Positions 14,062-30,199 of a stretch of DNA of 64,000 bases are shown one piece after another. The first letter of the stretch is position 1. Every line of letters begins with the position of its first letter. Position numbers and translations under genes: made by a program. Where the stretch lies: positions 1 through 64,000 of the forward strand of contig JAUYQP010000013.1 in the NCBI GenBank assembly GCA_030697205.1, written 5' to 3'. A model generated the notes under the pieces. The model was not told the DNA's origin, searched no databases, and was given only the letters and a program-made list of their open reading frames with translations. The DNA comes from Mycobacteriales bacterium (GTDB taxonomy: Bacteria > Actinomycetota > Actinomycetes > Mycobacteriales > SCTD01).

Positions 14062-14103
14062 GCCTCTCGTCGTACTCCTCCTGGCGTGGCAAGGTGCGGT
14101 CTC

Positions 14104-16386: not shown

Positions 16387-16459
16387 GCCTCCGTAGCTCA
16401 GTGGATAGAGCGCCTCCGTCCTAAGGAGGGCGTCGGGAGTTCGATTCTCTCCGGGGGCA
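16387..16459 (+). tRNA. tRNA-Arg (anticodon CCT)
   Basis: A 73-nt cloverleaf. Acceptor stem GCCTCCG/CGGGGGC, anticodon stem CCTCC/GGAGG with loop GTCCTAA giving anticodon CCT, which reads AGG. T-loop TTCGATT. A TAGCCT box at 16371-16376, 10 nt before the first base, is the likely -10. No CCA is encoded. Confidence 0.95.
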
Positions 16460-16607
16460 CCCCCTCCTCGTGCAGGCGACGTCATGTCGGGGATGACGAC
16501 GTGTGCTGCCCGGCCCGTGAGGGCCAGCAGAGTCTGGTCCTGCTGACCGTGGCAACAGGTCCCGACGGACCATGTACTCAGGTGTCTGCACTGCCGATGG
16601 TGTCCGG

Positions 16608-17051
16608 GTGACCGACCACGACTCCCTGACCCGGTCGACCGCGCACGTCGAGGCGCCTGTCGGCAGCATCCCCACCCAGCGCGTCCCCGCGCGGGAGGCC
16701 CGCTACGCCGCGGCCCCGCTCGACCTCGCCGACCCCGGCGTGCTGCTGCGGTCCTGGATGCAGACCCTCCACGGCCCGGGGCTCGACCCGCGACCGCGCA
16801 CCACCGGCCCGCTGCCGAGCGCGCGCCAGCTGCTCCCGACGGTGCTGTCCTGGCACGTCGCCTACGCCGTGATCGCGCTCGCAGGCGCCCTGGCCGTGCA
16901 GCGCAGCGGCTCCGGGTCGGTCGTCGCCGACGAGCTCGCCGCCGCCGGGCGACCCGGTCTCGTCGTCGCGACGCTGCTGCTGTGGTGGGGCGGGGTGGCC
17001 GCGGCGACGGTGCTGTGGTGGGCCGGGGTCGCGAGCACCCGGAACCGCTAG
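16608..17051 (+). CDS. Hypothetical membrane protein with two C-terminal TM segments
   Basis: A 147-aa protein: about 80 hydrophilic residues with many Pro/Arg, then two hydrophobic segments (VLSWHVAYAVIALAGALAV and LVVATLLLWWGGVAAATVLWW). No family recognised. I prefer the GTG at 16608 because a GATGGT box lies 6 nt before it; an ATG at 16572 would add 12 residues. It ends 4 nt inside the 3' end of mftF (convergent). Confidence 0.6.
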   Translation: MTDHDSLTRSTAHVEAPVGSIPTQRVPAREARYAAAPLDLADPGVLLRSWMQTLHGPGLDPRPRTTGPLPSARQLLPTVLSWHVAYAVIALAGALAVQRSGSGSVVADELAAAGRPGLVVATLLLWWGGVAAATVLWWAGVASTRNR

Positions 17052-18433
17052 TCGGGTCGTCGCAGCGACGGCAGCAGCGGTCGTGCGGTGCGGTGCCTGA
17101 GCGCACCGGCCCAGACCCCGAGGCCGTAGGCGAGCTCGTCCACCGCGCGGACCGCCGTCCACCGCACCGGGTCCACCGGCGGGCGCAGCCGGGCCCACTC
17201 GACGACGTGCGGGAGCACCGCGAGGGCGACGCCCGTGCGGCCACGGACCAGCAGCGGCGCGAGCGAGCCGAGGACCCGGCCGAGCCGCTGGGCGGTCCCG
17301 CTGACGCCCTGCGCGACCGTGACGGCGGCGACCTCACCGGGCAGCCCGTCGAGCTGTCGGGCGAGCCTCACCGTCGGGACGGCGGCGGCCAGCAGCGCCG
17401 GCCCCGGCCGGCGGGTCAGCAGCAGCGCGACGACGGCGGTCGGCCACGGGCGCAGCACCAGGTGGGTGAGGCGCACCCCGTGGCGCGTCGCGAGGGGCGC
17501 GGCCGAGGTGCCGTAGCGGAACCGCCTCGTGAGCACACCCCGCCAGGTCTCGGGCTCGACGTGGGCCACCTCCACCGACGGGTCGTAGCGCACCGTCCAG
17601 CCCGCGTCGTGCAGCCGCCACGCCAGGTCGACGTCCTCGCCGTAGCGCAGCGCCGGGTCGAAGGCCGGCTCCGGCAGGGCTGCGACCCGCACGAGCAGCG
17701 CGGCGGTCGGGACGTAGGCGACGGCACCGCCCGGTCGCACCCGAGCCGGGTGCGCGCCGAGGTCGAGCGGGCTGCGGGCCGCCGACACCCGCCCCCGCAC
17801 GGTCGGCCCCGCCGTCCCCACCACTCGCGGCGCGACCGCCGCGACAGCCGGGTCGGCGAGGTGCCCCAGCAGCCGTGACAGCCAGTCCGCCGGGGGGCGG
17901 CAGTCGCTGTCGACGAAGGCGGCGTACGCCGTGCCCGTGTGCGCGAGCCCGCTCGTGCGAGCGGCCCCCGGCCCCCCGCAGGTCTCGCGCCGGACGAGTC
18001 GGGCGCCGTGCCGCGCGACGACCGCCGCGACCGCTGCGGGGTCGAGCGACCCGTCATCGACGACGACCACCGGAGCCGCCCGGCCGAGGGCGGTGAGGCA
18101 ACCGTCGAGCTCAGCGGCCCGGTCCTTCACGGGCACGACGACGGTCACGTCGGCCACCGCAGCCGGCCGTGGCCGGGGGTGGGCGAGGCCGCCGTCGAGC
18201 AGGGTGCGCGCCAGTCGCTGCGAGCCGACCCGCCCCTGCGCGAGGCCGGCGAGCACGGCACCCGCGGTCGGCCCGAGCCGCAGCAGCCGACCCGGGTCAC
18301 CGCCGAGCAGCACCCGCCCGTCGGCCGACCGCCGCACCCGCGGGTCGAGGTGCACCGGCAATCCCTCGGGCAGCCGGTCCGACAGCGGACCCGCAGGGCG
18401 GTCGCTCCGGGCAGCCGGACCGCCCGGTGTCAC
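17048..18433 (-). CDS. mftF: Mycofactocin glycosyltransferase MftF
   Basis: A 461-aa family 2 glycosyltransferase. The N-terminal 80 residues carry the MftF-type start (LPEGLPVHLDPRVRRSADGR, GRVLLGGDPGRLLRL). The GT-A domain follows with VTVVVPVKDRAAELDGCL, VDDGS, FVDSDCRPP (acidic metal/donor site) and YGEDVDLAWRLHDAGW; the C-terminus is hydrophobic. MftF adds a beta-1,4-linked oligoglucose chain to premycofactocin. Its GTG overlaps the SDR stop (GTGA). It closes the minus-strand mycofactocin operon. Confidence 0.92.
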   Translation of the reverse strand: MTPGGPAARSDRPAGPLSDRLPEGLPVHLDPRVRRSADGRVLLGGDPGRLLRLGPTAGAVLAGLAQGRVGSQRLARTLLDGGLAHPRPRPAAVADVTVVVPVKDRAAELDGCLTALGRAAPVVVVDDGSLDPAAVAAVVARHGARLVRRETCGGPGAARTSGLAHTGTAYAAFVDSDCRPPADWLSRLLGHLADPAVAAVAPRVVGTAGPTVRGRVSAARSPLDLGAHPARVRPGGAVAYVPTAALLVRVAALPEPAFDPALRYGEDVDLAWRLHDAGWTVRYDPSVEVAHVEPETWRGVLTRRFRYGTSAAPLATRHGVRLTHLVLRPWPTAVVALLLTRRPGPALLAAAVPTVRLARQLDGLPGEVAAVTVAQGVSGTAQRLGRVLGSLAPLLVRGRTGVALAVLPHVVEWARLRPPVDPVRWTAVRAVDELAYGLGVWAGALRHRTARPLLPSLRRPD

Positions 18434-19206
18434 AGCGACAGGCCGCCGTCGACGGCGAGCGTCGCCCCCGTCACGGCGCCGCTGCCCGCACCCGCCAGCC
18501 ACACGATCGCGGCAGCCACCTCAGCCGGGTCGACGAGCCGCCCGAGCGGCTGCTGGCTCGCGAAGTCGTGGGCGGACTCGAGCCGGTAGAGCCGGGCGCT
18601 CTCGTCGAGCACCCGCGTCTCGGTGGAGCCGGGACTCACGGCGTTGGCCGTCACGCCCGTGCCGGCGAGCTCGGCAGCCAGGCCACGGACCAGGCCGGTC
18701 ACCCCGGCCTTGGCCGCGCAGTAGGCCGCGAGCTGCGGCAGCCCTCGGGTCGCGGCGGCCGACGCGACCGCGACGAAGCGACCCGAGCGGGGCGCGGGGC
18801 GGCGTAGCAGCGCGGGCACGCCGACCCGCGCGGCCGTGACGACCCCGCCGAGGTCGACCTCCAGTACCGCGCGGACCTGCTCCTCCGGCTGCTCCCACAA
18901 CGGCACCCCGCCGGCGACGACGCCGGCGACGGCGAGCACCGCGTCGAGCCCGCCGAAGCGCTCCTCGGCGACCGCCACGGCCGCGCCCAGGGCCGCGCCG
19001 TCGCAGGTGTCCGCGACCACCGCCAGGGCCCCGGTCTCGGCGGCCAGCGCGTCGAGCTCCTCGCGGGTCCCGAGCCCGTAGGGCAGCCGCGGGTCGTCCG
19101 CGCACCGGTCGGTGGCCACCACCGCCCAGCCGTCCGCCGCGAGCGCCCGCACCGTCGCGGCCCCGATGCCGCGCGCCGCCCCCGTCACCAGCGCGACCCG
19201 CGTCAC
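18430..19206 (-). CDS. Mycofactocin-coupled short-chain dehydrogenase/reductase
   Basis: A 258-aa SDR. NAD site TGAARGIG at residues 9-16; catalytic Ser in FVAVASAAATRG and Tyr-x3-Lys in AAYCAAKAG. After the second strand (VVATDRCAD) there is an insertion, RLPYGLGTREELDALAAETG, of the type found in mycofactocin-dependent SDRs that bury their NAD so it cannot exchange and must be recycled by mycofactocin. The location between mftE and mftF agrees. The substrate, an alcohol or hydroxy acid, is unknown. Separated from mftE by 112 bp with an inverted repeat. Confidence 0.88.
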   Translation of the reverse strand: MTRVALVTGAARGIGAATVRALAADGWAVVATDRCADDPRLPYGLGTREELDALAAETGALAVVADTCDGAALGAAVAVAEERFGGLDAVLAVAGVVAGGVPLWEQPEEQVRAVLEVDLGGVVTAARVGVPALLRRPAPRSGRFVAVASAAATRGLPQLAAYCAAKAGVTGLVRGLAAELAGTGVTANAVSPGSTETRVLDESARLYRLESAHDFASQQPLGRLVDPAEVAAAIVWLAGAGSGAVTGATLAVDGGLSL

Positions 19207-19240
19207 GGCTGCCCCTCCGTCGTACGCCCCTCATCCGCGA

Positions 19241-19295
19241 ATGGGGATCCCCGTTCGCACATCCGGGAGCCTGCGCGCAGAACGGGGATCCCCAT
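19241..19295. repeat. Perfect 16-bp inverted repeat between mftE and the SDR gene
   Basis: ATGGGGATCCCCGTTC at 19241-19256 is exactly complementary to 19280-19295, with a 23-nt loop. Each arm also contains the palindrome GGGGATCCCC. It is the only real gap in the mycofactocin operon and could reduce read-through into SDR-mftF, stabilise the upstream mRNA end, or bind a protein. Confidence 0.75.
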
Positions 19296-19318
19296 ACGCA
19301 CCAAGGTGTGCAGCCGCG

Positions 19319-20002
19319 TCATGCGGGCTCGACCGTCAGCCAGGCGACGACGGTGGCCTCCAGGTCGTCGACGGCCTCGGCGAGCAGCGCGCGGCCCTCC
19401 TCCGCCGAGGCCCCCGCGGGGTCGCCGAGGACGCCGTTGGTCGAGACGGCGCGCAGGCCGTCGCGCCGCAGCGCGGGCAGGATCTCAGCCAGCGGCGCGA
19501 CCTCGCCCGCGTCGCGCGCAGGCCCCACCCGTGAGGGGTCGAGCGCGAGCTGCACCGAGGTCTCGGTGCGGCCGGCGTGGGCGTCGCCGCGCCAGCGCGG
19601 GGCCCAGACGAGCACGTCGCGCGACTCGGCCCGCAGCCGCGCGGCCGCGGCGGCGAGGGTCGGCGCGTTGCCGCCGTGGCCGTTGACGAGCAGCACGTGG
19701 CGGAAGGTCTCCGTCGCCGAGCGCACCAGCTCGATGAGCAGCAGCTCGAGCGCCTCGTGACCGATCGACAGCGTCCCGGCAAAACCGGCGTGCTCGCCGC
19801 TCGCGCCGTAGGGCACGGCCGGGGCGACGACGACGTCGGTACGCCGCTCGGCGAGGCCGTGCGCGAGAGCGACCGCGATGTCGGTGTCGGTCGACAGCGG
19901 CAGGTGGGGGCCGTGCTGCTCGGTCGACCCGAGCGGCACGGCCAGGACCTCGTCGGGGACGGCCGGCCAGGTCAGGTCGCCCAGCCGCGCACCCGCCGTC
20001 AC
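19319..20002 (-). CDS. mftE: Mycofactocin precursor peptide peptidase MftE (creatininase family)
   Basis: A 227-aa creatininase-family metallopeptidase. Metal ligands are visible in PLGSTEQHGPHLPLSTDTDI (Glu, His, Asp) and near VLLVNGHGGNAPTL; YGASGEHAGFAGTLSIGH is also typical. MftE releases the C-terminal Val-Tyr-derived product (AHDP) from the MftC-modified MftA peptide. The GTG at 20000-20002 overlaps the ETF-beta stop. The product then needs oxidation by MftD, which is not encoded in this window. Confidence 0.94.
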   Translation of the reverse strand: MTAGARLGDLTWPAVPDEVLAVPLGSTEQHGPHLPLSTDTDIAVALAHGLAERRTDVVVAPAVPYGASGEHAGFAGTLSIGHEALELLLIELVRSATETFRHVLLVNGHGGNAPTLAAAAARLRAESRDVLVWAPRWRGDAHAGRTETSVQLALDPSRVGPARDAGEVAPLAEILPALRRDGLRAVSTNGVLGDPAGASAEEGRALLAEAVDDLEATVVAWLTVEPA

Positions 20003-20862
20003 GTGACCGCCCAGCCGGTGCGGGCCTCGGTGAGGTAGCCGTGGCGGACGAGGAAGTCGAGCAGCACGTCGGCGGCCTCGGCGGCGTCGACCGGCCCGAC
20101 GACGGTCGGCGGCTCGTGGGAGAGCAGCGCGCCGGTGAGGGCGAGCAGCCGCTCGCGGGGCGAGCCGGTCGGGGGCGCGACGTGGCGCGGGCGGGGCCGC
20201 GAGGCGCGGGCCGCGACGACCCGCACCCGCGACGGGCCGACGGCCACCGGGGCGACCGGGACCTCGAGCGACGCCGCGGCCAGGGCGGCGGGCAGCGGCG
20301 CGCGACGCAAACGCACCCCCGCGCCCTCGACCGAGCAGACCGCCGGGGTCGGCACCCGCATCCGCTCGCGGCGGCCGAGGTCGAGCCGTCGCTCGGCGAG
20401 CAGCTCGCCGTCGACGAGCTCGAGGGAGACCAGGCCGGGGGCCTGCACGCAGCCGAGCTCGTGGGCGACGAAGGCCGGCAGCGCACCCGTCCCCCGGTCG
20501 GCGCTGCGGTCCGCGCAGAGCACCAGGTCGGGGCGCTCGCCGCCCAGGGCCGCGACCAGCGCGCGGGCGAGGACCTGCTCGTCGGCGGCGAGCTCGTCGA
20601 CGTAGGAGGGCGTCCACGCGACCCGTCGTACGTCTGCTCCGAGGGCCGCCGCGTCGCGCAGCGAGGCGTCGACCTCGGGACCGCCTGCGGACATGGCGAG
20701 CACCGTGCCGCCGGTGGCCTCCGCGATCCGCAGCCCGTGCTCGAGCGCGGCCGCGTCGGCGGCCGACGGCGCGGCCGCGCGGGGGTCGCGCGCGACGGCA
20801 CCGGTGAGCGGGTCGACCTCGGCTCGCAGGTCGGTGCAGCGCAGCAGGACGACGACTCTCAT
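19999..20862 (-). CDS. Electron transfer flavoprotein beta subunit (mycofactocin-associated, FixA-like)
   Basis: A 287-aa ETF-beta with the nucleotide-binding Rossmann-like fold: LLRCTDLRAEVDPLTG at the start, ALEHGLRIAEATGG, and PDLVLCADRSADRGTGALPAF. The usual C-terminal arm that contacts the alpha subunit is present but rich in Pro/Arg (RASRPRPRHVAPPTG). It pairs with the alpha subunit encoded three genes upstream. Together with FixC and FixX this forms a FixABCX-type set. Four-nt overlap with mftE and 4-nt spacing to fixX show operon membership. Confidence 0.88.
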   Translation of the reverse strand: MRVVVLLRCTDLRAEVDPLTGAVARDPRAAAPSAADAAALEHGLRIAEATGGTVLAMSAGGPEVDASLRDAAALGADVRRVAWTPSYVDELAADEQVLARALVAALGGERPDLVLCADRSADRGTGALPAFVAHELGCVQAPGLVSLELVDGELLAERRLDLGRRERMRVPTPAVCSVEGAGVRLRRAPLPAALAAASLEVPVAPVAVGPSRVRVVAARASRPRPRHVAPPTGSPRERLLALTGALLSHEPPTVVGPVDAAEAADVLLDFLVRHGYLTEARTGWAVT

Positions 20863-20866
20863 CGGC

Positions 20867-21172
20867 TCACCCGTGCCGGAAGACGACGCCGTGGCCGCCG
20901 TCGGGGTAGGACCACGACAGCGCGCCCTCGCTGTTGCACACCTGGTAGCAGGTGCCGCACTCGAAGCACTGCTCGTAGTTGAACAGGATGCCGCCGTCGC
21001 TGGTCGGCGCGAACAGGTCGGCCGGGCAGGCCGTCACGCAGGCCTTGGTGGTGCAGGACCGGCACACGTCGCTGTCCACGACGATGTGGGCGCGCTCCGC
21101 GACCCGGAACTCCACCGTCGCCATCCGGTCCTCGAACGCGATGCCGTCGTACGCCTGAGAGCTGTCGCTCAC
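20867..21172 (-). CDS. FixX-type 4Fe-4S ferredoxin
   Basis: A 101-aa ferredoxin-like protein with Cys motifs CRSCTTKACVTACP and CFECGTCYQVCN. FixX and the C-terminal domain of ETF-quinone oxidoreductase have this form and pass electrons from FixC flavin to quinone or ferredoxin. Its ATG overlaps the fixC stop (ATGA). Confidence 0.92.
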   Translation of the reverse strand: MSDSSQAYDGIAFEDRMATVEFRVAERAHIVVDSDVCRSCTTKACVTACPADLFAPTSDGGILFNYEQCFECGTCYQVCNSEGALSWSYPDGGHGVVFRHG

Positions 21173-22482
21173 CGGAACACCCTCCCGCCCGCGATCGCGT
21201 CCGCGGCAAGGTGCCGCAGCTTGACGCCGTTGCGCTTCGCCGACCGGCGCAGCAGCGCCAGCGCGCCCGGCTTCGCGGTCGGGTTGGTCACCGTGAACAG
21301 CCCCTCGACGAGGTCCGCGACCAGCCCCGGGTAGCGCTGCTGCACCCGCTCGCTGAGCACCAGCCCCGGCGCACCCCGCAGGCGCTTGTGGTCCTGGAGC
21401 ACGAAGGTCGACTCAAGGTCCCGACGGTACGCCGACAAGGCCCGCCTCGAGCTGTCCCCCTGCTGCGCCGCCGCCGCGGCCGTGCGCCCGGCTGCGAGAC
21501 CGGAGCCGATCGCGAAGTTGACGCCCTCGAGCCAGATGCCCGCAGCGAGCGTCATGCCGGCCGCGTCGCCCGTGACGAGCATCCCGTCGATGGCGAGCTC
21601 GGGGAAGGCGTCGTAGCCACCCTCGGGGATGAGGTGGGCGGTGTACTCCTTGACGCTCGCCCCCCGCAGCCACGGGGCGACCGCCGGGTGGGCCTTGAGG
21701 TCCGCGACGAGCTGCTCGGGGCGGACCTTCGCGGCGGCGAGGTGCTCGAGGGAGACGACGACGCCGACCGAGACGGTGTCGCGGTTGGTGTAGAGGAAGC
21801 CGCCGCCCGGGATCCCGCGGGTGCAGCCGAGGATCTCGACGTCGACGCCCTCGTCACCGCTCACCCCGAAGCGCTCGTCGATGACGTCGCGCGGCAGCGC
21901 CAGCACCTCCTTCACCCCGAGGGTGTGGTGCGTGGCGTCGGCGCGCGGCAGCAGGCCGGCCTCCTTGGCGAGGAAGCTGTTGACGCCGTCGGCCGCGACG
22001 ACGACGGCCGCGCGCAGGTCGCCGTCGGGCCGGTCGGTGCGGACCCCGACGACCTTCCCGGTCTCGTCGCGGAGCAGCCCGGTGGCGACCGTGCTCGTCA
22101 CGAGATGCGCGCCGGCCTCGACAGCCTTGCCCGCGAGCCAGCTGTCGAAGTCGGCGCGGAAGGTCGTGCAGCCGTTGTAGGGCGCCTGCCCCCACGCGGC
22201 CGTGCGGAAGTCGACGGTGAGGGCCTGCGTCTCGGTGAGGACCATCGTCGAGCGCCGGGTCACCCAGCGCTGGAAGGGGACCTCCTCCCACCACCGCGGC
22301 AGGACCTCGTCGAGGACCCGGCCGTAGACGACGCCGCCGTAGGCGTTCTTCGAGCCGGGGAAGGGCCCGCGCTCCAGCAGCACGACGCGCGCGCCGGCTC
22401 GGGCAGCAGTCAGCGCGGCCGAGGACCCGGCCGGTCCGGCGCCGACGACGATGACGTCGTAGTCGTGTGAGGCGTCGTTCAC
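21169..22482 (-). CDS. FixC-like FAD-dependent ETF:quinone oxidoreductase
   Basis: A 437-aa flavoprotein. Dinucleotide motif DVIVVGAGPAGSSAAL at residues 9-24, ERGPFPGSKNAYGGVVYG, then AADGVNSFLAKEAG, and the late FAD motif DGMLVTGDAAGMTLAAG. It matches FixC / ETF-QO, which accepts electrons from ETF and reduces quinone with FixX. The GTG at 22480-22482 overlaps the ETF-alpha stop (GTGA). No nif genes are present, so a nitrogen-fixation role is unlikely; the mycofactocin operon gives the context. Confidence 0.92.
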   Translation of the reverse strand: MNDASHDYDVIVVGAGPAGSSAALTAARAGARVVLLERGPFPGSKNAYGGVVYGRVLDEVLPRWWEEVPFQRWVTRRSTMVLTETQALTVDFRTAAWGQAPYNGCTTFRADFDSWLAGKAVEAGAHLVTSTVATGLLRDETGKVVGVRTDRPDGDLRAAVVVAADGVNSFLAKEAGLLPRADATHHTLGVKEVLALPRDVIDERFGVSGDEGVDVEILGCTRGIPGGGFLYTNRDTVSVGVVVSLEHLAAAKVRPEQLVADLKAHPAVAPWLRGASVKEYTAHLIPEGGYDAFPELAIDGMLVTGDAAGMTLAAGIWLEGVNFAIGSGLAAGRTAAAAAQQGDSSRRALSAYRRDLESTFVLQDHKRLRGAPGLVLSERVQQRYPGLVADLVEGLFTVTNPTAKPGALALLRRSAKRNGVKLRHLAADAIAGGRVFR

Positions 22483-23465
22483 GGGGTGACTCCCAGCCGC
22501 TCGGCGAGCTCGTCGAGCAGGGCGCGCGCGTCGGTGACGAGACCGAGGTCGGCCATCGCGGTCATCGGGCACGACGGGTCGAGGTTGACGCTGACGACGT
22601 GGCGCGGGGCGCCGAGGCCGCCGGTGTGCTGACCCGCGCCGGCGACGCCGAGTGCGAGGTAGAGCTCGGGGTCGACGCTCACCCCGGTCGTGCCGATCTG
22701 GCGGTCGTGGTGGACCCAGCCCGCGTCGGTGACGACCCGGGTCGCACCGGTGCTCGCACCGAGCCGGGTGGCGAGGGCTCGCAGCAGGTCGAAGGTCTGC
22801 CGGGCGGTCGCGTCGTCGGCGCCGTGCGGGACGAGGCCGGCGCCGCCGCCGACGACCCGCGCGGCCTCCGAGAGGTCCATCGTCTCGGGGTCGGGCGGCA
22901 GCACCGCGAGCCGCTCCGCATCGACGCCGCCGCTCGCATCGAGCAGCAGCTCGAGCAGCTCGCCGTTGGTCGGGCGCAGCGGGCTGCGGCAGCCCGGCAG
23001 CAGCGTCACGACGGCCGGGCCGTCGCAGCGCACGTCGACGTCGAGCCGACCGTCGAGGCGCGACAGGGTCGCGGTGACTCCGTCGTCGTCGACACCCGCC
23101 GCCGAGGCCCAGGCCAGGAGGGGCCGGTCGAGCGCGGCGGCCAGCCGGGGCGCGAAGTCGCGACCGTCCGGGCTCGCCGGCAGCACGACCAGGCGCACGT
23201 CGCGCAGCAGCGGCACGAGCGCCGCCGACAGGCCGGCGGGTGCGGCACCGGCGGTCTCGGCGTACCACGTGCGGGTGGCCCCGAGCTCGGCCGCGGCCTC
23301 CGCGGTGCCCGAGCCGACGAGCAGCACCCGACCGCTCGCCTCCGCCGCCGCCTCCGCCGCTCCGACCGGGAGCTGGCCCGCGCGCACGATGACGAGCGCG
23401 AGCCGGCTCACCTGCAGCGGCTCGACCTCGGCGGTCGCGCCGAGATGGGTGGAGGTCACGGTCAC
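22479..23465 (-). CDS. Electron transfer flavoprotein alpha subunit (mycofactocin-associated, FixB-like)
   Basis: A 328-aa ETF-alpha. The C-terminal FAD-binding domain is clear: VTDAGWVHHDRQIGTTGVSV, PELYLALGVAGAGQHTGGLG and VSVNLDPSCPMTAMADLG. Compared with the general ETF-alpha pattern (RQVGQTG, SGAIQH) several FAD-contact residues differ, in keeping with a dedicated subfamily. Overlaps fixC and the OYE gene by 4 nt each. Confidence 0.9.
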   Translation of the reverse strand: MTVTSTHLGATAEVEPLQVSRLALVIVRAGQLPVGAAEAAAEASGRVLLVGSGTAEAAAELGATRTWYAETAGAAPAGLSAALVPLLRDVRLVVLPASPDGRDFAPRLAAALDRPLLAWASAAGVDDDGVTATLSRLDGRLDVDVRCDGPAVVTLLPGCRSPLRPTNGELLELLLDASGGVDAERLAVLPPDPETMDLSEAARVVGGGAGLVPHGADDATARQTFDLLRALATRLGASTGATRVVTDAGWVHHDRQIGTTGVSVDPELYLALGVAGAGQHTGGLGAPRHVVSVNLDPSCPMTAMADLGLVTDARALLDELAERLGVTP

Positions 23466-25414
23466 AGCGACACCGCCACCCGGTGGCCCTCGACGACCGC
23501 GGCGTGGGCACGGCGCGGGGCGAGGCAGTCACCGATGCGGTGCACGGGGAAGGGCGCGTCCGCCAGGGCGTGCCACAGCGCGTCGTCGGCCCGCTGCTGC
23601 ACGGCGCAGACGACCCAGTCGCAGGTCAGCGTGACGTCGGTGCCGGTCGGGTGGTGCTGCAGCTGCAGCACGATGCGGTCGCCCTCGACGGTCGCGTCCA
23701 TCGGCACGACGTCGGTGCGCTGCGCGATGCCCTTGGCCTCGGCCTTCACGTTCCAGGTCTCGAGGTCGAGGGTGATGCCGAGGTCCTGGCCGACGACCAT
23801 GCCGGGGGTGACGACCTCGACGTCGCAGCCACGGTCGGCGAGCAGCTCGGCGACCGAGGTGGCCTGGTGGAAGCCGAGGTCGTCGACGACGACGACGCGC
23901 CCCGACGGCGCGGCCCGCCCCTCGAGGACGTCGCGCACGTCGACGACCCGCGCGGCGTCACCGGCCCACCAGGGCCGGTTCGGGACCGCTCCGGTGGCGA
24001 GCACGACCACGTCGGGGAACTCGCCGAGCAGCAGGTCGGCGCTCGCGTCGTACGACGTCTTGATGTCGACGCCGACGCGCTGCGCGGCCGAGACGAGGTT
24101 GCGGGTGATGTCGAGGAACTCCGCCCTGCTCGGGACACTCGCGGCGATCGGCACCTGACCTCCGAGCCGCTCCGAGCGCTCGAAGAGCGTGACGTGGTGA
24201 CCGCGCTCGGCCGCGGTGACAGCGGCCTGCAGACCGGCCGGACCGCCCCCGACGACGAGGACCCGCTGCGACCGGCGGGTCGGCATCGGCAGGGCGACCG
24301 ACTCGTGGCCTGTGCGGGGGTTCTCGATGCAGCCGAGCCAGCGGTTGAGGCCCATCCGCCCGACGCACTCCTGGTTGCACGACAGGCAGGTGCGGATGTC
24401 TGCGGCCTGGCCGGAGCGGGCCTTGCGGACGAAGTCGGGGTCGGCGATCTGGCCGCGCACGACCCCGATGAGGTCGGCCTGACCGGCGGCGATCGCGCGG
24501 TCCGCCTGGGTCGGGTCCTTGAAGCGACCGACGCCGACGACGGGGATGCTGACCGCCTCGCGGATCGCCGACGGGATGAACATCGCGTAGCCCGGCGGCA
24601 CCTGCATCGAGGCCTCGATCATGTAGAGCGTCGCGGTCGCGACCCCGATCGAGGTGTTGACGTAGTCGACCTGACCGGTCGCGTCGCACAGCCGCGCGAC
24701 CTCCACGGCCTCGTCGATCGTCGTACCCCCCTCGATGAGCTCGTCGCCGCACAGCCGCACACCGAGCGCCTTCGTCGGGCCGAGGACGGAGCGGACCGCG
24801 GCGACGACCTCGAGCAGCAGCCGGGCGCGGTTGGCGAGGCTGCCGCCGTAGGCGTCGGTGCGCAGGTTGGTCGCAGGGCTGAGGAAGCCGCGCACGATGG
24901 AGGAGTGGCTGCACTGCAGCTCCACGCCGTCGAAGCCGCCGGCGACGCAGTGCTCGGCGACGAGGGCGTAGCCGTCGACGACCGAGCGGATCTCGGCGTG
25001 GTCGAGGGCCTTCGGGACCTCGCGGAAGAGCGGGTCGGGTACGGCGCTCGGCGCCCAGACCGGCAGCCGGCTGTACATGCTGGAGGCCTGCCCGCCATTG
25101 TGGTTGAGCTGCGCGAGGATCGGCGTGCCGTGGGCGTGCACCGCCTCGGTGATGCGGCGGTAGCCGGGGACGACCCGCGGGTCGAAGCCGTGGATGAGCT
25201 TCTCGTAGGGCCAGTCGGTGACGTGGGTCGAGTGCTCCTCGGTGATGATCAGGCCGGCGCCGCCCGCGGCCCGGGCGGCGTAGTAGGCCGCGTGCTGCTC
25301 GGTCGCCATCCCGTCCTGCGCGTAGTTGGTGAGGTGGGCGCTGAAGACCACGCGGTTCTGCACGGTCAGCGGACCGATGCGCAGCGGCGACAGCAGGTGC
25401 GGGTAGCGGCTCAC
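23462..25414 (-). CDS. Mycofactocin-system FadH/OYE-family oxidoreductase 2
   Basis: A 650-aa protein with the three-domain layout of 2,4-dienoyl-CoA reductase: an FMN-binding OYE barrel (residues 1-340), an FeS segment with cysteines spaced C-x2-C-x3-C-x11-C (TCLSCNQECVG), and C-terminal FAD/NAD domains (VLVVGGGPAGLQAAV). The OYE barrel keeps the classical SPATNLRTDAYGGSLANRAR. It should move electrons between FMN, 4Fe-4S, FAD and a nicotinamide or ETF partner. HMM families of this type are known from mycofactocin loci, but the substrate is not established to my knowledge. Confidence 0.9.
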   Translation of the reverse strand: MSRYPHLLSPLRIGPLTVQNRVVFSAHLTNYAQDGMATEQHAAYYAARAAGGAGLIITEEHSTHVTDWPYEKLIHGFDPRVVPGYRRITEAVHAHGTPILAQLNHNGGQASSMYSRLPVWAPSAVPDPLFREVPKALDHAEIRSVVDGYALVAEHCVAGGFDGVELQCSHSSIVRGFLSPATNLRTDAYGGSLANRARLLLEVVAAVRSVLGPTKALGVRLCGDELIEGGTTIDEAVEVARLCDATGQVDYVNTSIGVATATLYMIEASMQVPPGYAMFIPSAIREAVSIPVVGVGRFKDPTQADRAIAAGQADLIGVVRGQIADPDFVRKARSGQAADIRTCLSCNQECVGRMGLNRWLGCIENPRTGHESVALPMPTRRSQRVLVVGGGPAGLQAAVTAAERGHHVTLFERSERLGGQVPIAASVPSRAEFLDITRNLVSAAQRVGVDIKTSYDASADLLLGEFPDVVVLATGAVPNRPWWAGDAARVVDVRDVLEGRAAPSGRVVVVDDLGFHQATSVAELLADRGCDVEVVTPGMVVGQDLGITLDLETWNVKAEAKGIAQRTDVVPMDATVEGDRIVLQLQHHPTGTDVTLTCDWVVCAVQQRADDALWHALADAPFPVHRIGDCLAPRRAHAAVVEGHRVAVSL

Positions 25415-27336
25415 GGGTGCGCCCCCGCCGGGGCGGCGCCGCAGAGCTCGAGGGCACGGCGGCGACCCTCGAGGACGGCCTCAAGCACGGTGCGCGGCGC
25501 GACGCAGTCGCCGGCCCGCGGGTGCCCCGGGAGCGCCGGGTCCGGGAGCCGGTGGCCGCAGTCGACGAGGACCGCGCAGTCGATGGTGCGGCGCTCACCG
25601 GTCCACACGTGCTCGAGCACGGCGGTGCCGCCGGAGGCGGAGCGGAGCAGGGCCTTGAGCTCACGGCGTACGCCGAGCCGCTGCAGCCGGGTGTTGCAGT
25701 CGGCGAGGTCGCCGGTGAGGGACAGCAGCGTGCCGGCGATCGGGTCGGCGGTGACGAGCGTGACGTCGCGCCCGGTGAGGGCGAGGTGCTCGGCGACGGC
25801 GACACCCGCGGTGCCTCCGACCGGGTCATGGACGACCACCGGACCAGGAGGGACCTCGCCGGTCAGGGCCGCGCGGACGTCGAGCAGGACCGTCGGGTCG
25901 ACCGTCGGCCCGGGCTGCCCGTCGGCCTCCGGGGTGCGCCCGTGGGTGCGGTCGGCGGGCACACTGCCGGTCGCGACGACGACGTCACCGGTCACGGGCT
26001 CGCGGACCTCGCTGCCCAGGCGGACGTCGACGCCCAGGCGACGGCACTCGGACTCGAGCCAGCCGAGGTAGGCGCTGAAGCGACCGCGACCGGGCAGCTG
26101 GGCCCACTCGCGGACGGCGCCGCCGAGGCCGGGCGCCCGCTCGTGCAGGACCACCCGGTGACCGCGACCGGCGAGCACCCGCGCGGCCTCGAGACCGGCG
26201 GGGCCGCCGCCGACGACGGTGACGTCGCGCGGGTGGTCGAGCCCCTCGGGCGCGGGGTCGGTGAGCTCGTGGCCGGAGCGGGGCTCGACGACGCACGACA
26301 CGATCGGGTTGCGCGCGTCGCGGACCCGGCAGGCCTGGTTGCACAGCACGCAGGGGCGCGGCGCGACACCGGCGCGGGCCTTCGCGACGAGCTCCGGATC
26401 GGCGACCTGCGCGCGGGTCATCTCGACGAGGTCGGCGGTGCCGTCGACCAGCGCCTGCTCGGCCATGGCCGGGTCGACGACCGAGCCCTGCAGGACCACC
26501 GGCACACGCACGGCGGCCTTGAGCTGCGCGGTCAGGTCGCGGTTGAACCCTGGCTCGACGTGGGCGTCGGGGCGGTAGGCGCTGCCGGCGTAGGGGCCTG
26601 CACGCACCACGACGAGCAGGTCGATCAGGTCCTGCACGCCCGCAGCGGTGGCGACCGCGTGCTCGGGGGTGATGCCGGCCCAGGGGGCGAGCTCGTCGCA
26701 GGACAGCCGGAGGGAGACGATCGCGTCGGGGGCTTCGGCGCGCACCGCGGTGAGGACCTCGCGCAGCAGCAGGGCCTTGTCGTCGCCGTAGCCGTCGCCG
26801 CGCTGGTTGGTCAGGCCGGACAGGAACTGCCGTAGCAGGCTGCGGTCACCGGCCTCGACCTCGACGCCGTGGCAGCCCGAGTCGACGGCGAGGCGGGCCG
26901 CGTCGGCGAAGCCCGCGACGACGGCGGCGATCTCGGTCGGTCCCATGACCGCGGGCAGCTCGCGGCTGACGACGTCGGCGACCGGCGACGGCGCCCACAG
27001 CACCTGCTGGGAGTAGGCGCTGGAGCCCTGCAGGCCGGTGTGGCCGAGCGAGGCGAGGACGAGCGCGGGGGCAGAGGCCGCGGCGACGGCCGCCCAGCCG
27101 GGGCCGCACTCCGCCGCGAGCGGCGCCCGCTCGTAGGGCCAGTCGTCGGCGGTGACCGACGCGGTCTCGGTGACCACGACGCCTGCACCACCGGCCGCGC
27201 GCGCGGCGTAGTAGGCGACGTGGCGGTCCGACAGGGCGCGACCACCCGGTCGACCGAGGTTGGTCTCGTGCGGGCCGAAGACGACGCGGGAGGGCGCCTC
27301 GTGGCCGCGCAGGACGACCGGACCGGTGAGCAGCAT
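25411..27336 (-). CDS. Mycofactocin-system FadH/OYE-family oxidoreductase 1
   Basis: A 641-aa paralogue of the next gene with the same layout: OYE barrel, FeS segment PCVLCNQACRV with the same C-x2-C-x3-C-x11-C spacing, then VTVVGGGPAGLEAARVL. The barrel is more diverged: where the partner has YGGSLANRAR it has YGDDKALLLRE, and QLNHNGGQ is replaced by SLGHTGLQ. So the two are not redundant copies. The ATG at 27334-27336 touches the mftC stop (TGATG). Possibly an obligate partner of oxidoreductase 2 or of the ETF. Confidence 0.9.
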   Translation of the reverse strand: MLLTGPVVLRGHEAPSRVVFGPHETNLGRPGGRALSDRHVAYYAARAAGGAGVVVTETASVTADDWPYERAPLAAECGPGWAAVAAASAPALVLASLGHTGLQGSSAYSQQVLWAPSPVADVVSRELPAVMGPTEIAAVVAGFADAARLAVDSGCHGVEVEAGDRSLLRQFLSGLTNQRGDGYGDDKALLLREVLTAVRAEAPDAIVSLRLSCDELAPWAGITPEHAVATAAGVQDLIDLLVVVRAGPYAGSAYRPDAHVEPGFNRDLTAQLKAAVRVPVVLQGSVVDPAMAEQALVDGTADLVEMTRAQVADPELVAKARAGVAPRPCVLCNQACRVRDARNPIVSCVVEPRSGHELTDPAPEGLDHPRDVTVVGGGPAGLEAARVLAGRGHRVVLHERAPGLGGAVREWAQLPGRGRFSAYLGWLESECRRLGVDVRLGSEVREPVTGDVVVATGSVPADRTHGRTPEADGQPGPTVDPTVLLDVRAALTGEVPPGPVVVHDPVGGTAGVAVAEHLALTGRDVTLVTADPIAGTLLSLTGDLADCNTRLQRLGVRRELKALLRSASGGTAVLEHVWTGERRTIDCAVLVDCGHRLPDPALPGHPRAGDCVAPRTVLEAVLEGRRRALELCGAAPAGAHP

Positions 27337-28514
27337 CAGCGGGCGAGCCCCGCCAGGGGGCTCTCGTCGCAGCCCTTGCTGGGCGGCCGCATGCCGATCG
27401 TCACGGGCACCGGACCGCCGCGGACCCCGCCCTTGTGGGAGTGGTCGCCGGTGGGTCGCGGAGCTGAGACGACGCCCGCGAGCGCGCTCTCGCCGTAGCC
27501 CTGCACGCACTCGGGGTCCGGGCCGTCGAGCGGCAGGCCGGTGAAGAACTTCGCGGCCATGCAGCCTCCGCGGCAGGCGTCGTAGTGCTGGCACGACGCG
27601 CAGCTGCCACCGCTCTGCGGCTCGCGCAGCTCGCGGAAGAGCTCCGACTCCCGCCACACCGTGGCGAAGCCGCCGGGCGAGCGGACGTTGCCGGCGAGGA
27701 AGGAGTCGTGGATGGCGAAGGGGCAGGCGTAGACGTCACCGACCGGGTCGATGAGGCAGACGACGCGACCGGCGCCGCACAGGTTGAGGCCGGGCAGCGC
27801 CTCGCCGAACGCCGACAGGTGGAAGAACGAGTCGCCGGTGAGGACGCCCTCGCCGTGGCGGACCAGCCAGTCGTAGAGCTCGCGCTGCTGCGCGGCCGTG
27901 GGGTGCAGGTCGTCCCAGACGTCGGCGCCGCGACCTGAGGGTCGCAGCCGGGTGAGCCGCAGCGTCGCGCCGAAGCGGTCGGCGAGCGCCTTGAAGTCGT
28001 CGAGCTGGCCGATGTTGTGGCGGGTGCAGACGACCGACACCTTCGCGTCGCGGAAGCCCGCGTCGGCGAGGTGCTGCAGGGCGCGGGTCGCGGTCTCGAA
28101 GGAGCCGGCGCCGCGCACCGCGTCGTTGACGTCGGCGGTCGCGCCGTCGAGGGAGATCTGCACGTCGACGTAGTCGCTGGCCGCGAGCCGGGCCGCGGCC
28201 GCCGCGTCGATCTTGATGCCGTTGGTGGAGAACTTCACCCCGACCTGGTGGGCCGTCGCGTAGTCGACGAGCTCCCAGAAGTCGGAGCGCACGGTCGGCT
28301 CGCCGCCGCCGATGTTGACGTAGAAGACCTGCATCCGCTGCAGCTCGTCGATGACCGCCTTGCACTCCTCGGTCGACAGCTCGCGCGGGTCGCGCCGGCC
28401 GCTGCTGGACAGGCAGTGCACGCACGCGAGGTTGCAGGCGTAGGTGAGCTCCCAGGTCAGGCAGATGGGCGCGTCGAGGCCGGCCTCGAAGTGCTCGATG
28501 AGGGTGGCGGTCAC
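27336..28514 (-). CDS. mftC: Mycofactocin radical SAM maturase MftC
   Basis: A 392-aa radical SAM/SPASM protein. The SAM cluster motif Cys27-x3-Cys31-x2-Cys34 lies in TYACNLACVHC; GGGEPTVR follows. The C-terminal SPASM cysteines include those in LNLCGAGRVVC, YACPF, SCASCQHYDACRGGC and PEC. MftC decarboxylates the C-terminal tyrosine of MftA and crosslinks it to the preceding valine. The GTG at 28512-28514 overlaps the mftB stop. Confidence 0.96.
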   Translation of the reverse strand: MTATLIEHFEAGLDAPICLTWELTYACNLACVHCLSSSGRRDPRELSTEECKAVIDELQRMQVFYVNIGGGEPTVRSDFWELVDYATAHQVGVKFSTNGIKIDAAAAARLAASDYVDVQISLDGATADVNDAVRGAGSFETATRALQHLADAGFRDAKVSVVCTRHNIGQLDDFKALADRFGATLRLTRLRPSGRGADVWDDLHPTAAQQRELYDWLVRHGEGVLTGDSFFHLSAFGEALPGLNLCGAGRVVCLIDPVGDVYACPFAIHDSFLAGNVRSPGGFATVWRESELFRELREPQSGGSCASCQHYDACRGGCMAAKFFTGLPLDGPDPECVQGYGESALAGVVSAPRPTGDHSHKGGVRGGPVPVTIGMRPPSKGCDESPLAGLAR

Positions 28515-28786
28515 TGGAGCATCCCCGTGGTCTCGAGGGTGGTCAGGGCACGGGCGTAGCGGGGCAGCTCGCCGTCGGTGATGCCGGCGACCGCGCAGGC
28601 CTCGCGGGTGGTGCGGGTGCCGTCGAGGGCCTCCACCGCGGCGAGCAGCCGCGGCTCCTTGAGGAACGACAGCCGGCGGGTGCCGAAGTGGTAGAGCAGC
28701 GCTCCGAAGCGCTCCGGGCGCACCGCGACCTGCGGGTGCAGCCGGAGCGGCCGGTCGAGCACGGGGGCGGGGGCGGGGGCGGGCAC
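28511..28786 (-). CDS. mftB: Mycofactocin peptide chaperone MftB (RRE protein)
   Basis: A 91-aa RiPP recognition element protein that delivers MftA to MftC. After a Pro-Ala-rich start (VPAPAPAPVLDRP) it has the MftB core RFGALLYHFGTRRLSFLKEP. Its GTG at 28784-28786 overlaps the mftA stop codon by one base (TAGTG). The longer open frame upstream runs antisense to nothing useful and through mftA, so it was rejected as the start. Confidence 0.93.
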   Translation of the reverse strand: MPAPAPAPVLDRPLRLHPQVAVRPERFGALLYHFGTRRLSFLKEPRLLAAVEALDGTRTTREACAVAGITDGELPRYARALTTLETTGMLQ

Positions 28787-28941
28787 TAGTAGACGCCGCA
28801 CATCCCGTCGATGGAGACGTCCTCGACGAGCACGTCCTCCTCGACGACCTCGACGGGCGGAGCGGTCTCGAGGTCGGCCTCGACGACGGTCTCGATGGCG
28901 GTCTCGATGGCGGTGTCGATGACATCGATGGGAGCGGTCAT
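28786..28941 (-). CDS. mftA: Mycofactocin precursor peptide MftA
   Basis: A 51-aa peptide, below many length cut-offs. It starts MTAPIDVIDTAIETAIET, is strongly acidic, and ends with the conserved core IDGMCGVY whose last Val-Tyr becomes the redox cofactor. It is longer than the roughly 30-residue precursors I remember from mycobacteria because of an N-terminal Glu/Thr/Ile-rich extension that contains a short repeat (AIET twice). AAGGAG lies 8 nt before the ATG. First gene of the operon. Confidence 0.97.
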   Translation of the reverse strand: MTAPIDVIDTAIETAIETVVEADLETAPPVEVVEEDVLVEDVSIDGMCGVY

Positions 28942-29025
28942 GCGTGGTACTCCTTAGCGCGAGGGTGACAGCCGTCACAACGTGTGATGCACCATAGATG
29001 CACTCGGTGCAGAAGGGAAGACCCC
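28942..29025. promoter_or_regulatory. Divergent mftA/mftR control region
   Basis: An 84-bp space between the start codons of mftA (minus) and mftR (plus). It holds GTGAC-agcc-GTCAC (28967-28980) and TGCACC-(12 nt)-GGTGCA (28988-29011), both inverted repeats suitable for a TetR dimer. MftR is known to repress mft genes in mycobacteria and to respond to acyl-CoA; autoregulation here is inferred. The mftA ribosome binding site AAGGAG lies at its left end. Confidence 0.6.
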
Positions 29026-29613
29026 ATGGCAGGGCGCGGCCGACCGCCGTCCACGACGCACGACGAGCTGTCCGACCTCGGCCTGCGACTGTTCGTCGAG
29101 CGCGGCTTCGACGAGACGACCGTCGACGACATCGCCGCCGCCGCCGGCATCGCGCGCCGCACCTTCTTCGGCTACTACCCGTCGAAGAACGACGTCGTCT
29201 ACGGCGACTTCGGTGCGCTGCTGTCGGCGATGCGCGCCCACCTGTCGGCCACCCCCGCGACGGTGCCCGTGCTCGACGCGGTGCGAGACGCGGTCATCGC
29301 CTTCAACCGGGTCGGCCCGGCCGCGGAGGACCTGCACCGCGAGCGGATGCGGCTCATCCTGCACACGCCCGCGCTGCAGGCCCACTCGACGCTGCGCTAC
29401 ACCGCCTGGCGCTGCGTCGTCGCCGACTTCGCCGCCGAGCGCTTCGGCTGCGACGTCGAGGACCTGCGCCCGCAGCTGGTCGCCCACACCGCCCTCGGTG
29501 CCGCGCTCGCGGCCTACGAGCAGTGGCTGCACCAGCCCGGCTCCGACCTCGACAAGCTGCTCGACGAGGCGCTGCGCTGGGTCGCCCACGGCCTCGCGAC
29601 CGAGCTGTCCTGA
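29026..29613 (+). CDS. mftR: TetR-family mycofactocin regulator MftR
   Basis: A 195-aa TetR regulator. The N-terminal helix-turn-helix is VDDIAAAAGIARRTFFGYYP, preceded by LGLRLFVERGFDETT. Divergent from mftA, in the position of MftR in mycobacteria. The ATG at 29026 follows AGAAGGGAAG; an in-frame ATG 14 codons upstream would put the coding sequence inside the operator region. Likely represses the mft operon and itself. Confidence 0.9.
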   Translation: MAGRGRPPSTTHDELSDLGLRLFVERGFDETTVDDIAAAAGIARRTFFGYYPSKNDVVYGDFGALLSAMRAHLSATPATVPVLDAVRDAVIAFNRVGPAAEDLHRERMRLILHTPALQAHSTLRYTAWRCVVADFAAERFGCDVEDLRPQLVAHTALGAALAAYEQWLHQPGSDLDKLLDEALRWVAHGLATELS

Positions 29614-29647
29614 CCGCCGGCCGGCCGCTCTGTGCTGGACTCCTGAC

Positions 29648-30199
29648 ATGAGCGTCGACAGGGACCGGGCCGAGGCTGCTGTCCGCGAGCTGCTCAGCGC
29701 GCTCGGTCAGGATGTCGCCCGCGAAGACCTGCGCGACACGCCACGGCGGGTCGTCGCGGCGTACGACGAGCTCTTGACCCCGACCGACTTCGACCTCACG
29801 ACGTTCCCCAACGACGAGGGGTACGACGAGCTGGTCCTCGTGCGCGACATCCCCTTCCACTCGCTGTGCGAGCACCACCTGCTGCCGTTCGTCGGGACGG
29901 CCCACGTCGCCTACCTCCCCGGCGACCGCATCCTCGGGCTGTCGAAGCTGGCCCGCGTGGTCGAGCGGTTCGCGCGGCGGCTGCAGGTGCAGGAGCGGAT
30001 GACGCAGCAGATCGCGACCTGGCTGCGCGAGGAGCTGCAGCCCAAGGGCGTCGGCGTGGTGCTGGAGGCCGAGCACATGTGCATGCGGCTGCGCGGCGCG
30101 AAGGCGCCGGGCACGTCGACGGTCACCTCGTCACTGCACGGCGCGCTGCGCGACAGCGCGCGCACGAGGGCGGAGTTCCTCGACCTCGTGCGCCGCTGA
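29648..30199 (+). CDS. folE: GTP cyclohydrolase I
   Basis: A 183-aa enzyme converting GTP to 7,8-dihydroneopterin triphosphate for folate or other pterins. Zinc and active-site residues are in FHSLCEHHLLPFVGTAHVAY and AEHMCMRLRGAK; RILGLSKLARVVERFARRLQ is the central helix. It follows mftR by 34 nt on the same strand and may be co-transcribed. No other folate genes are nearby, which raises the question of why it sits in this island. Confidence 0.94.
   Translation: MSVDRDRAEAAVRELLSALGQDVAREDLRDTPRRVVAAYDELLTPTDFDLTTFPNDEGYDELVLVRDIPFHSLCEHHLLPFVGTAHVAYLPGDRILGLSKLARVVERFARRLQVQERMTQQIATWLREELQPKGVGVVLEAEHMCMRLRGAKAPGTSTVTSSLHGALRDSARTRAEFLDLVRR

Follow-up and report, generated by a model that had tools for sequence, protein, structure and literature searches.

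In Mycobacterium smegmatis, MftD carries out the oxidative deamination of 3-amino-5-[(p-hydroxyphenyl)methyl]-4,4-dimethyl-2-pyrrolidinone (AHDP) to premycofactocin (PMFT), and a mftD deletion strain forms no PMFT and accumulates AHDP (PMC7491314). The enzyme is described in most, not all, species with mycofactocin (Haft 2011, PMC3023750). Here we describe a mycofactocin operon without mftD, found in a Mycobacteriales bacterium (assembly GCA_030697205.1) within the first 64,000 nucleotides of contig JAUYQP010000013.1, the stretch referred to below as the window. It runs on the minus strand from 28941 to 17048 in the order mftA, mftB, mftC, OYE_1, OYE_2, etfA, fixC, fixX, etfB, mftE, a short-chain dehydrogenase/reductase (SDR) gene and mftF. 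The mftA-G cluster of mycobacteria likewise has mftR, A, B, C, E and F and a mycofactocin-coupled SDR in a similar general order; however, the window lacks mftD and mftG and carries, at the place of mftD, a six-gene block of old yellow enzyme (OYE), electron transfer flavoprotein (ETF) and Fix genes. We consider it probable, with some reserve, that this OYE_1-OYE_2-EtfA-FixC-FixX-EtfB block replaces MftD, turning AHDP into PMFT and sending the electrons to the ETF, FixC-FixX and quinone. More tentatively, we propose that the mycofactocin redox core can also be reached by another route that needs no oxygen, in which a pair resembling trimethylamine dehydrogenase (TMADH) makes, and may recycle, the cofactor and drains via ETF-FixCX to the quinone pool, the block having been swapped for MftD many times in Actinomycetota.

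Clusters without mftD are already published for Saccharopolyspora: 17 of them encode a FadH/OYE protein of the OYE_2 family (TIGR03997), of a function unknown to the authors, who also cite S. erythraea as producing the cofactor (PMC11162802, NAR 2024). The paper compares clusters, and its main text does not mention electron transfer, flavoprotein, FixC or ETF. A biochemical parallel is 6-hydroxypseudooxynicotine dehydrogenase (Pno), described as sharing the FMN/4Fe-4S/ADP-domain fold and as having genes for ETF and ETF:quinone oxidoreductase in its cluster; it oxidises an amine, reducing EtfAB and then EtfQO and coenzyme Q, and NAD(P)+, O2 and ferredoxin do not serve it (PMC7688666). Pno differs in belonging to nicotine catabolism and in using coenzyme Q, as against the presumed menaquinone here. 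The FixABCX of nitrogen fixers and the EtfABCX of Thermotoga share the ETF pair, FixC and dicluster FixX, which in the window are instead joined to two OYE proteins and the pathway of a cofactor derived from a ribosomally synthesised and post-translationally modified peptide (RiPP). NCBI models named as mycofactocin-associated ETF exist. In the searched literature, outside of which most subscription papers lie, we found no report of an exchange between MftD and the module or of the electron route, and no paper joining ‘mycofactocin’ and ‘electron transfer flavoprotein’.

Window proteins were scored in bits against NCBIfam models with curated cut-offs. Ten of the 12 operon genes passed a mycofactocin-model cut-off, and the cluster has the MftA with conserved C-terminus, MftB, MftC and MftF of mycofactocin biosynthesis. 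Because the remaining two scored below the cut-offs of their models, the wording ‘FixC-like’ and ‘FixX-like’ is the safer one; the former was also under the cut-off of a second FixC-type model (321 bits against 610) and marginally under that of ETFQO_UQ-bd (26.4 against 27.7). Neighbouring genes overlap or sit 4 bases apart, except for a gap of 112 bases between mftE and the SDR gene. The genome (4.02 Mb in 59 contigs, rated 100% complete) gave no match at E≤1e-60 to the MftD model (all 20 candidates scored), to the MftG model TIGR03970 (all 12 scored) or to the MftG-type model TIGR04542 (19 of 38 scored), so that no MftD hidden outside the operon was found at this threshold. TIGR03970 was used for MftG throughout, since TIGR04542 underscores in-cluster MftG, giving that of most family f2 genomes only 206–255 bits against a cut-off of 400.

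The original prediction, made from the window alone, had named these genes and pointed to the lack of mftD and mftG; all are present, and the search above extends both absences to the whole genome. Its two FadH/OYE proteins are there, with their identity and order now made precise: OYE_1 (TIGR03996) adjoins mftC, followed by OYE_2 (TIGR03997). Its Fix module stands as regards the two ETF subunits, which exceed their cut-offs, and is reduced to ‘-like’ for FixC and FixX. Its gene list omitted the divergent regulator mftR, and its island of 17048–30199 took in folE, which is no part of it (Table 1).

Exchange between MftD and the module was followed in an even sample of 398 Actinomycetota genomes, for which at least 95% completeness was asked; 82 had MftC over cut-off. 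Five of these were left out (G261, G150, G249, G309 and G349), whose MftC matches of 323–340 bits form a separate MftC-like radical SAM group, over the cut-off yet far below the rest, and possibly represent another RiPP system. The other 77 mycofactocin genomes comprised 62 with MftD, 15 with the OYE/ETF/Fix module and none with both. OYE_2 exceeded its cut-off of 793 bits in 13 of the 77 and fell just under it in G322 (787 bits, the gene being cut by a contig end) and G270 (764 bits), and these 15 are precisely the genomes without MftD over cut-off. We inspected the mft regions of all 77, over a stretch of up to 16 kb around mftC. OYE_1, OYE_2, etfA and fixC were found in all 15 module genomes (some partial), fixX in 14 and etfB over cut-off in 12; the contig of G322 ends in fixC, no etfB was found in G394, and G270 has a weak ETF-like open reading frame in its place (Pfam ETF 21.2, cut-off 26.7). 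The etfA of G270 and G394 was below its cut-off. No OYE, ETF or Fix genes of the module kind lay near mftC in any of the 62 MftD genomes within that stretch, and no etfA over cut-off was found genome-wide in the 11 of them that were searched.

Among the MftD genomes, mftD directly followed mftC in 37. In 4 more it was found at another point of the stretch and in 21 beyond it, so that separation of mftD from the cluster is frequent also in genomes that have no module. The position directly after mftC that mftD holds in those 37 loci is taken by the OYE/ETF/Fix block in the window. Since the block stands where MftD is lost, the most economical explanation is that it carries out the MftD reaction and uses a respiratory chain as acceptor. 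For mycofactocin genomes without MftD (15 of 77), the searched literature names no enzyme for making the redox-active core, and the exchange names a likely MftD substitute and an electron acceptor. This reading, which fits best of those considered and is favoured over a replacement of MftG, was not proposed in the original prediction.

A quickly built tree of MftC from all 77 genomes indicates that the exchange happened repeatedly. The MftD/module type changes 8 times on it, at least 4 of these being forced on well-supported branches, while shuffled labels gave a mean of 13.9 changes and none of 500 shuffles was as low as 8. The MftC of the window falls in a supported group (96%) with 25 sequences of the MftD type. 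In the independent supported contrasts the module went with absence of MftD in 4 of 4.

The gene set also survives dispersal. The module genes of G081, G151 and G310, all of family f33, are spread over three sites on different contigs and still present as a set, and in G202, G206 and G326 the module is rearranged with its gene set still kept. A module that persists as a set when scattered or rearranged is held together by its function, beyond mere hitch-hiking in an operon. Two further candidates for scattering, G218 and G258, were dropped, as the contig ends within or next to the genes show these to be assembly breaks.

The closest solved proteins to OYE_2 were 2-naphthoyl-CoA reductase (NCR), E. 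coli 2,4-dienoyl-CoA reductase (FadH), 6-HPON amine oxidase, histamine dehydrogenase and TMADH, and its predicted model aligns over 600+ residues to all five; 6l6j, the relative of known structure to Pno, shares 28% identity with it. Mean pLDDT of the model is 76 and residues 343–377, in the iron-sulfur region, are under 50, for which reason no pocket was read from it. The OYE proteins have the full-length FMN barrel, 4Fe-4S cysteines and FAD/ADP domains of the TMADH/histamine dehydrogenase group. The GxGxxG motif for NAD(P)H in the second Rossmann domain was found in none of 94 OYE_2 and none of 83 OYE_1 sequences, whereas that of FadH-type 2,4-dienoyl-CoA reductases is present in 1ps9; at its position OYE_2 reads VVVVDDLGFHQATS, like the VVVYDDDHYYMGG of histamine dehydrogenase. 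As in that group, the missing motif goes with an ETF partner, here suggested by gene linkage. OYE_2 has Leu opposite the Cys of 6de6, which we take to be the site of covalent FMN attachment; this cysteine is not required in the group, since 6l6j has Ala there and binds FMN non-covalently. An active-site His that OYE_2 shares with the amine dehydrogenases was discarded as evidence, as ordinary OYEs also carry it. The four cluster cysteines are retained in 94 of 94 OYE_2 compared with 68 of 86 OYE_1, which suggests that the enzyme of the pair that relays electrons is OYE_2, with OYE_1 perhaps a partner subunit.

On this basis, MftC and MftE would make AHDP from MftA as usual, and OYE_2, the likelier of the two flavoproteins, would dehydrogenate the C–N bond of AHDP in the style of TMADH and histamine dehydrogenase, giving PMFT and ammonia. 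Because it is a flavoprotein without an NAD(P)H motif, its electrons would leave by way of the iron-sulfur cluster, be taken up by the dedicated ETF and be carried on by FixC-FixX to (mena)quinone. MftF would then glycosylate the product and SDRs with bound NAD would reduce the cofactor. The same chain may also re-oxidise mycofactocinol.

That electrons are instead split between quinone and ferredoxin, in a FixABCX-like bifurcation, we regard as very improbable. It draws on the best solved relative of the FixC-like protein, FixC chain 7koe_C (270 bits), which we take to come from the Thermotoga FixC/EtfC complex, presumably a bifurcating one. Against it, the similarity of EtfB to solved ETF beta chains is weak (27–50 bits), no NAD-linked partner was seen, and neither FixC nor FixX reaches the model score that would mark a bifurcating FixABCX.

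A second set of loci was drawn from a scan with the OYE_2 alignment, as the best 80 of 493 relatives. Among these 80, which are rich in Saccharopolyspora, Amycolatopsis, Frankia, Prauserella, Kutzneria, Streptomyces and Acidimicrobiales, the closest relatives of the window's OYE_2 come from ‘Frankiales’ metagenome-assembled genomes (MAGs), at 85–88% identity, an affiliation that the window probably shares. The 42 loci of at least 21.9 kb, one of which (L161) appears to match first-sample genome G206, hold OYE_1 and OYE_2 in all 42, etfA, fixC and fixX in 41 each, etfB in 40, mftC in 37 and mftD in one. MftD and MftG were counted across the whole genomes of 50 of the 80 loci (35 with NZ_ records and 15 MAGs; 30 left out), and 39 of the 50 had the module without MftD over cut-off.

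Several observations weigh against the replacement of MftD. MftD is present in 11 of those 50 module genomes (10 over cut-off, one in two fragments): in the same cluster in one (Rhodococcus opacus), in a second mft cluster in two (one mftA-B-C-D, the other mftB-C-D-E plus an orphan), as an orphan in six and at contig ends in two. The exclusion of MftD and module that is exact in the even sample is therefore leaky here. Half of the Saccharopolyspora genomes (11 of 22) have MftD somewhere, which weakens the genus as proof that the OYE suffices, and S. erythraea itself lies outside this orphan-mftD check. On the MftC tree, the long branches of G394 and G270 call for caution, and four contrasts are too few for significance in a sign test (p 0.125). 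The two closest solved relatives of OYE_2, NCR and FadH, are reductases, and NCR also lacks the NAD(P)H motif in the alignment. One cluster cysteine is lost in 17 of 86 OYE_1, the second being Ser, Thr, Ala or Asp, mainly in Amycolatopsis and Prauserella. A respiratory chain of four proteins would also be a costly outfit for a biosynthetic reaction that carries little flux.

The last such point, R. opacus ATCC 51881, counts against pure replacement. Its cluster (L164, 3600–15677) holds mftR, A, B, C, D, OYE_1, an SDR gene, OYE_2, mftE, F and G, with no etf or fix genes within it; the best etfA match genome-wide is 131 bits, below the cut-off of 240, in a search that covered etfA and not etfB. 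The OYE motifs look intact. The OYE pair can therefore persist beside MftD and MftG without a mycofactocin-type ETF, a naturally occurring combination of old and new parts, and the cluster is in line with ETF-FixCX being required solely when MftD or MftG is absent. A wider lineage of this kind was looked for in genus g3, which we merely guess to be Rhodococcus: OYE_2 beside MftD was found in none of 78 genomes at E≤1e-180, a threshold at which control genomes also gave no match.

Retention of both OYEs beside MftD and MftG in R. opacus would suit a different role, in which the pair depends on mycofactocin and acts in catabolism or detoxification, as an ene-reductase might, and is fed or drained by ETF-FixCX, the loss of MftD being incidental or covered by another flavoprotein. 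The reductases NCR and FadH being the closest solved relatives, and the SDR gene that R. opacus and several Acidimicrobiales have between the two OYE genes, speak in the same direction. We nevertheless hold this role to be distinctly improbable, as it leaves unexplained both the absence of MftD at every supported module contrast and the missing NAD(P)H motif.

The main rival to MftD replacement is the role given to the module by the original prediction, in which SDRs reduce mycofactocin, OYE and ETF re-oxidise mycofactocinol and FixC-FixX deliver the electrons to quinone, the set replacing MftG and the MftD step being left to something else. The underlying tie between this ETF and mycofactocin is borne out: etfB exceeded its cut-off in 12 of the 398 genomes, every one with mftC, and in none of the 316 others (up to 5 best candidates scored per genome). 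MftG was over cut-off in 22 of the 77 mycofactocin genomes and in none of the 15 with the module (Fisher p 0.004, 2×2, not corrected for kinship), and R. opacus, which alone among the 50 second-set genomes has MftG at the mycobacterial level (735 bits), has no ETF-Fix genes in its cluster. Saccharopolyspora with an orphan MftD retain the module, and a dedicated respiratory chain would suit a high-flux step, recycling better than synthesis. PMFT, at -255 mV (PMC7491314), could reduce quinone, and a stand-in for MftG has been left open for 25% of genomes (PMC11778925, eLife 2025).

However, MftG and the module are both absent from 40 of the 62 MftD genomes, and in about 3.5 of the 4 supported contrasts MftG stayed the same where the module changed, compared with a difference in MftD in all 4; MftG needs just 3 changes on the tree. 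The separation of MftG and module seen in the even sample is likewise leaky in the second set, where three of the 49 genomes besides R. opacus (G423, G408 and G432) have MftG-family matches of 428–458 bits, over the cut-off of 387 and near the in-cluster MftG of G198 (435 bits). To our knowledge, OYE folds do not oxidise alcohols. The exchange with MftD would also go unexplained. These counts and contrasts disfavour MftG replacement as the sole or main role, and we consider it unlikely. The route from mycofactocinol through OYE and ETF to FixCX is possible beside the replacement of MftD, and one set of enzymes would serve to test both that substitution and how mycofactocinol is re-oxidised without MftG.

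A division of labour would combine the two roles, one OYE taking MftD's step and the other oxidising mycofactocinol, with a shared ETF-FixCX outlet serving synthesis and recycling. The two diverged OYEs do occur together in all 42 long second-set loci and all 15 first-sample module genomes, and neither MftD nor MftG is over cut-off in the latter. We find this improbable, however, given that MftD and MftG would make both OYEs redundant in R. opacus, and that the OYE_1 proteins short of a cluster cysteine need not relay electrons themselves, so that the pair could be one heteromeric enzyme.

Table 1. Features of the mycofactocin locus and its surroundings (window positions; scores in bits).
Feature	Position	Strand	Evidence and remarks
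mftA precursor peptide, 51 aa	28786–28941	-	TIGR03969 43.3, cut-off 25; C-terminus IDGMCGVY
mftB peptide chaperone	28511–28786	-	TIGR03967 105.7, cut-off 33; start codon by eye
mftC radical SAM maturase	27336–28514	-	TIGR03962 666, cut-off 265
OYE_1 (mycofact_OYE_1), FMN/4Fe-4S/FAD flavoprotein	25411–27336	-	TIGR03996 823, cut-off 628; Oxidored_FMN
OYE_2 (mycofact_OYE_2), FMN/4Fe-4S/FAD flavoprotein, proposed AHDP dehydrogenase	23462–25414	-	TIGR03997 988, cut-off 793
etfA, mycofactocin-associated ETF alpha (mft_etfA)	22479–23465	-	NF038209 408, cut-off 240; ETF_alpha FAD domain
fixC-like ETF:quinone oxidoreductase	21169–22482	-	NF007450 329, under cut-off 466; 7koe_C FixC 270
fixX-like dicluster ferredoxin	20867–21172	-	Fer4 dicluster domains; FixX model 57, under cut-off 166
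etfB, mycofactocin-associated ETF beta (mft_etfB)	19999–20862	-	TIGR04503 306, cut-off 200
mftE peptidase	19319–20002	-	TIGR03964 296, cut-off 172
Mycofactocin-coupled SDR	18430–19206	-	TIGR04504 346, cut-off 250
mftF glycosyltransferase	17048–18433	-	TIGR03965 366, cut-off 280; start overlapping SDR stop, chosen by eye
mftR, divergent TetR regulator	28984–29613	+	TIGR03968 261, cut-off 225
folE, GTP cyclohydrolase I	29642–30199		Unrelated to operon
Deoxyribodipyrimidine photolyase-like gene	32251–33597	+	TIGR03556 347, under cut-off 885
tRNA-Arg (cct)	16387–16461	+	Just beyond mftF end
GlcD-like FAD-linked oxidase	14086–15660	+	FAD_binding_4 and FAD-oxidase_C; near mftF end

Some further features of the second set are recorded here. 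The OYE_1 proteins with the second cluster cysteine replaced are those of L103, L106, L108, L110, L111, L118, L120, L122, L134, L135, L137, L138, L141, L147, L152, L158 and L160, and in L138 the fourth is missing too. Orphan mftD genes occur in six Saccharopolyspora genomes whose mft cluster holds the OYE/ETF module (L176, L177, L178, L179, L181 and L182); in several members of the genus the orphan adjoins what, judged by eye, looks like an iron-dependent alcohol dehydrogenase gene. Six loci from Acidimicrobiales and related MAGs (L113, L117, L130, L133, L136 and L144) share with R. opacus an extra SDR gene that separates OYE_1 from OYE_2. In four loci from Frankia, Pseudofrankia and Solirubrobacter (L102, L109, L123 and L167) the module has its own mftR and no mftA-B-C in the fetched stretch, as if it were a separately regulated unit; L123, at a contig end, shows just the OYE genes of the module.

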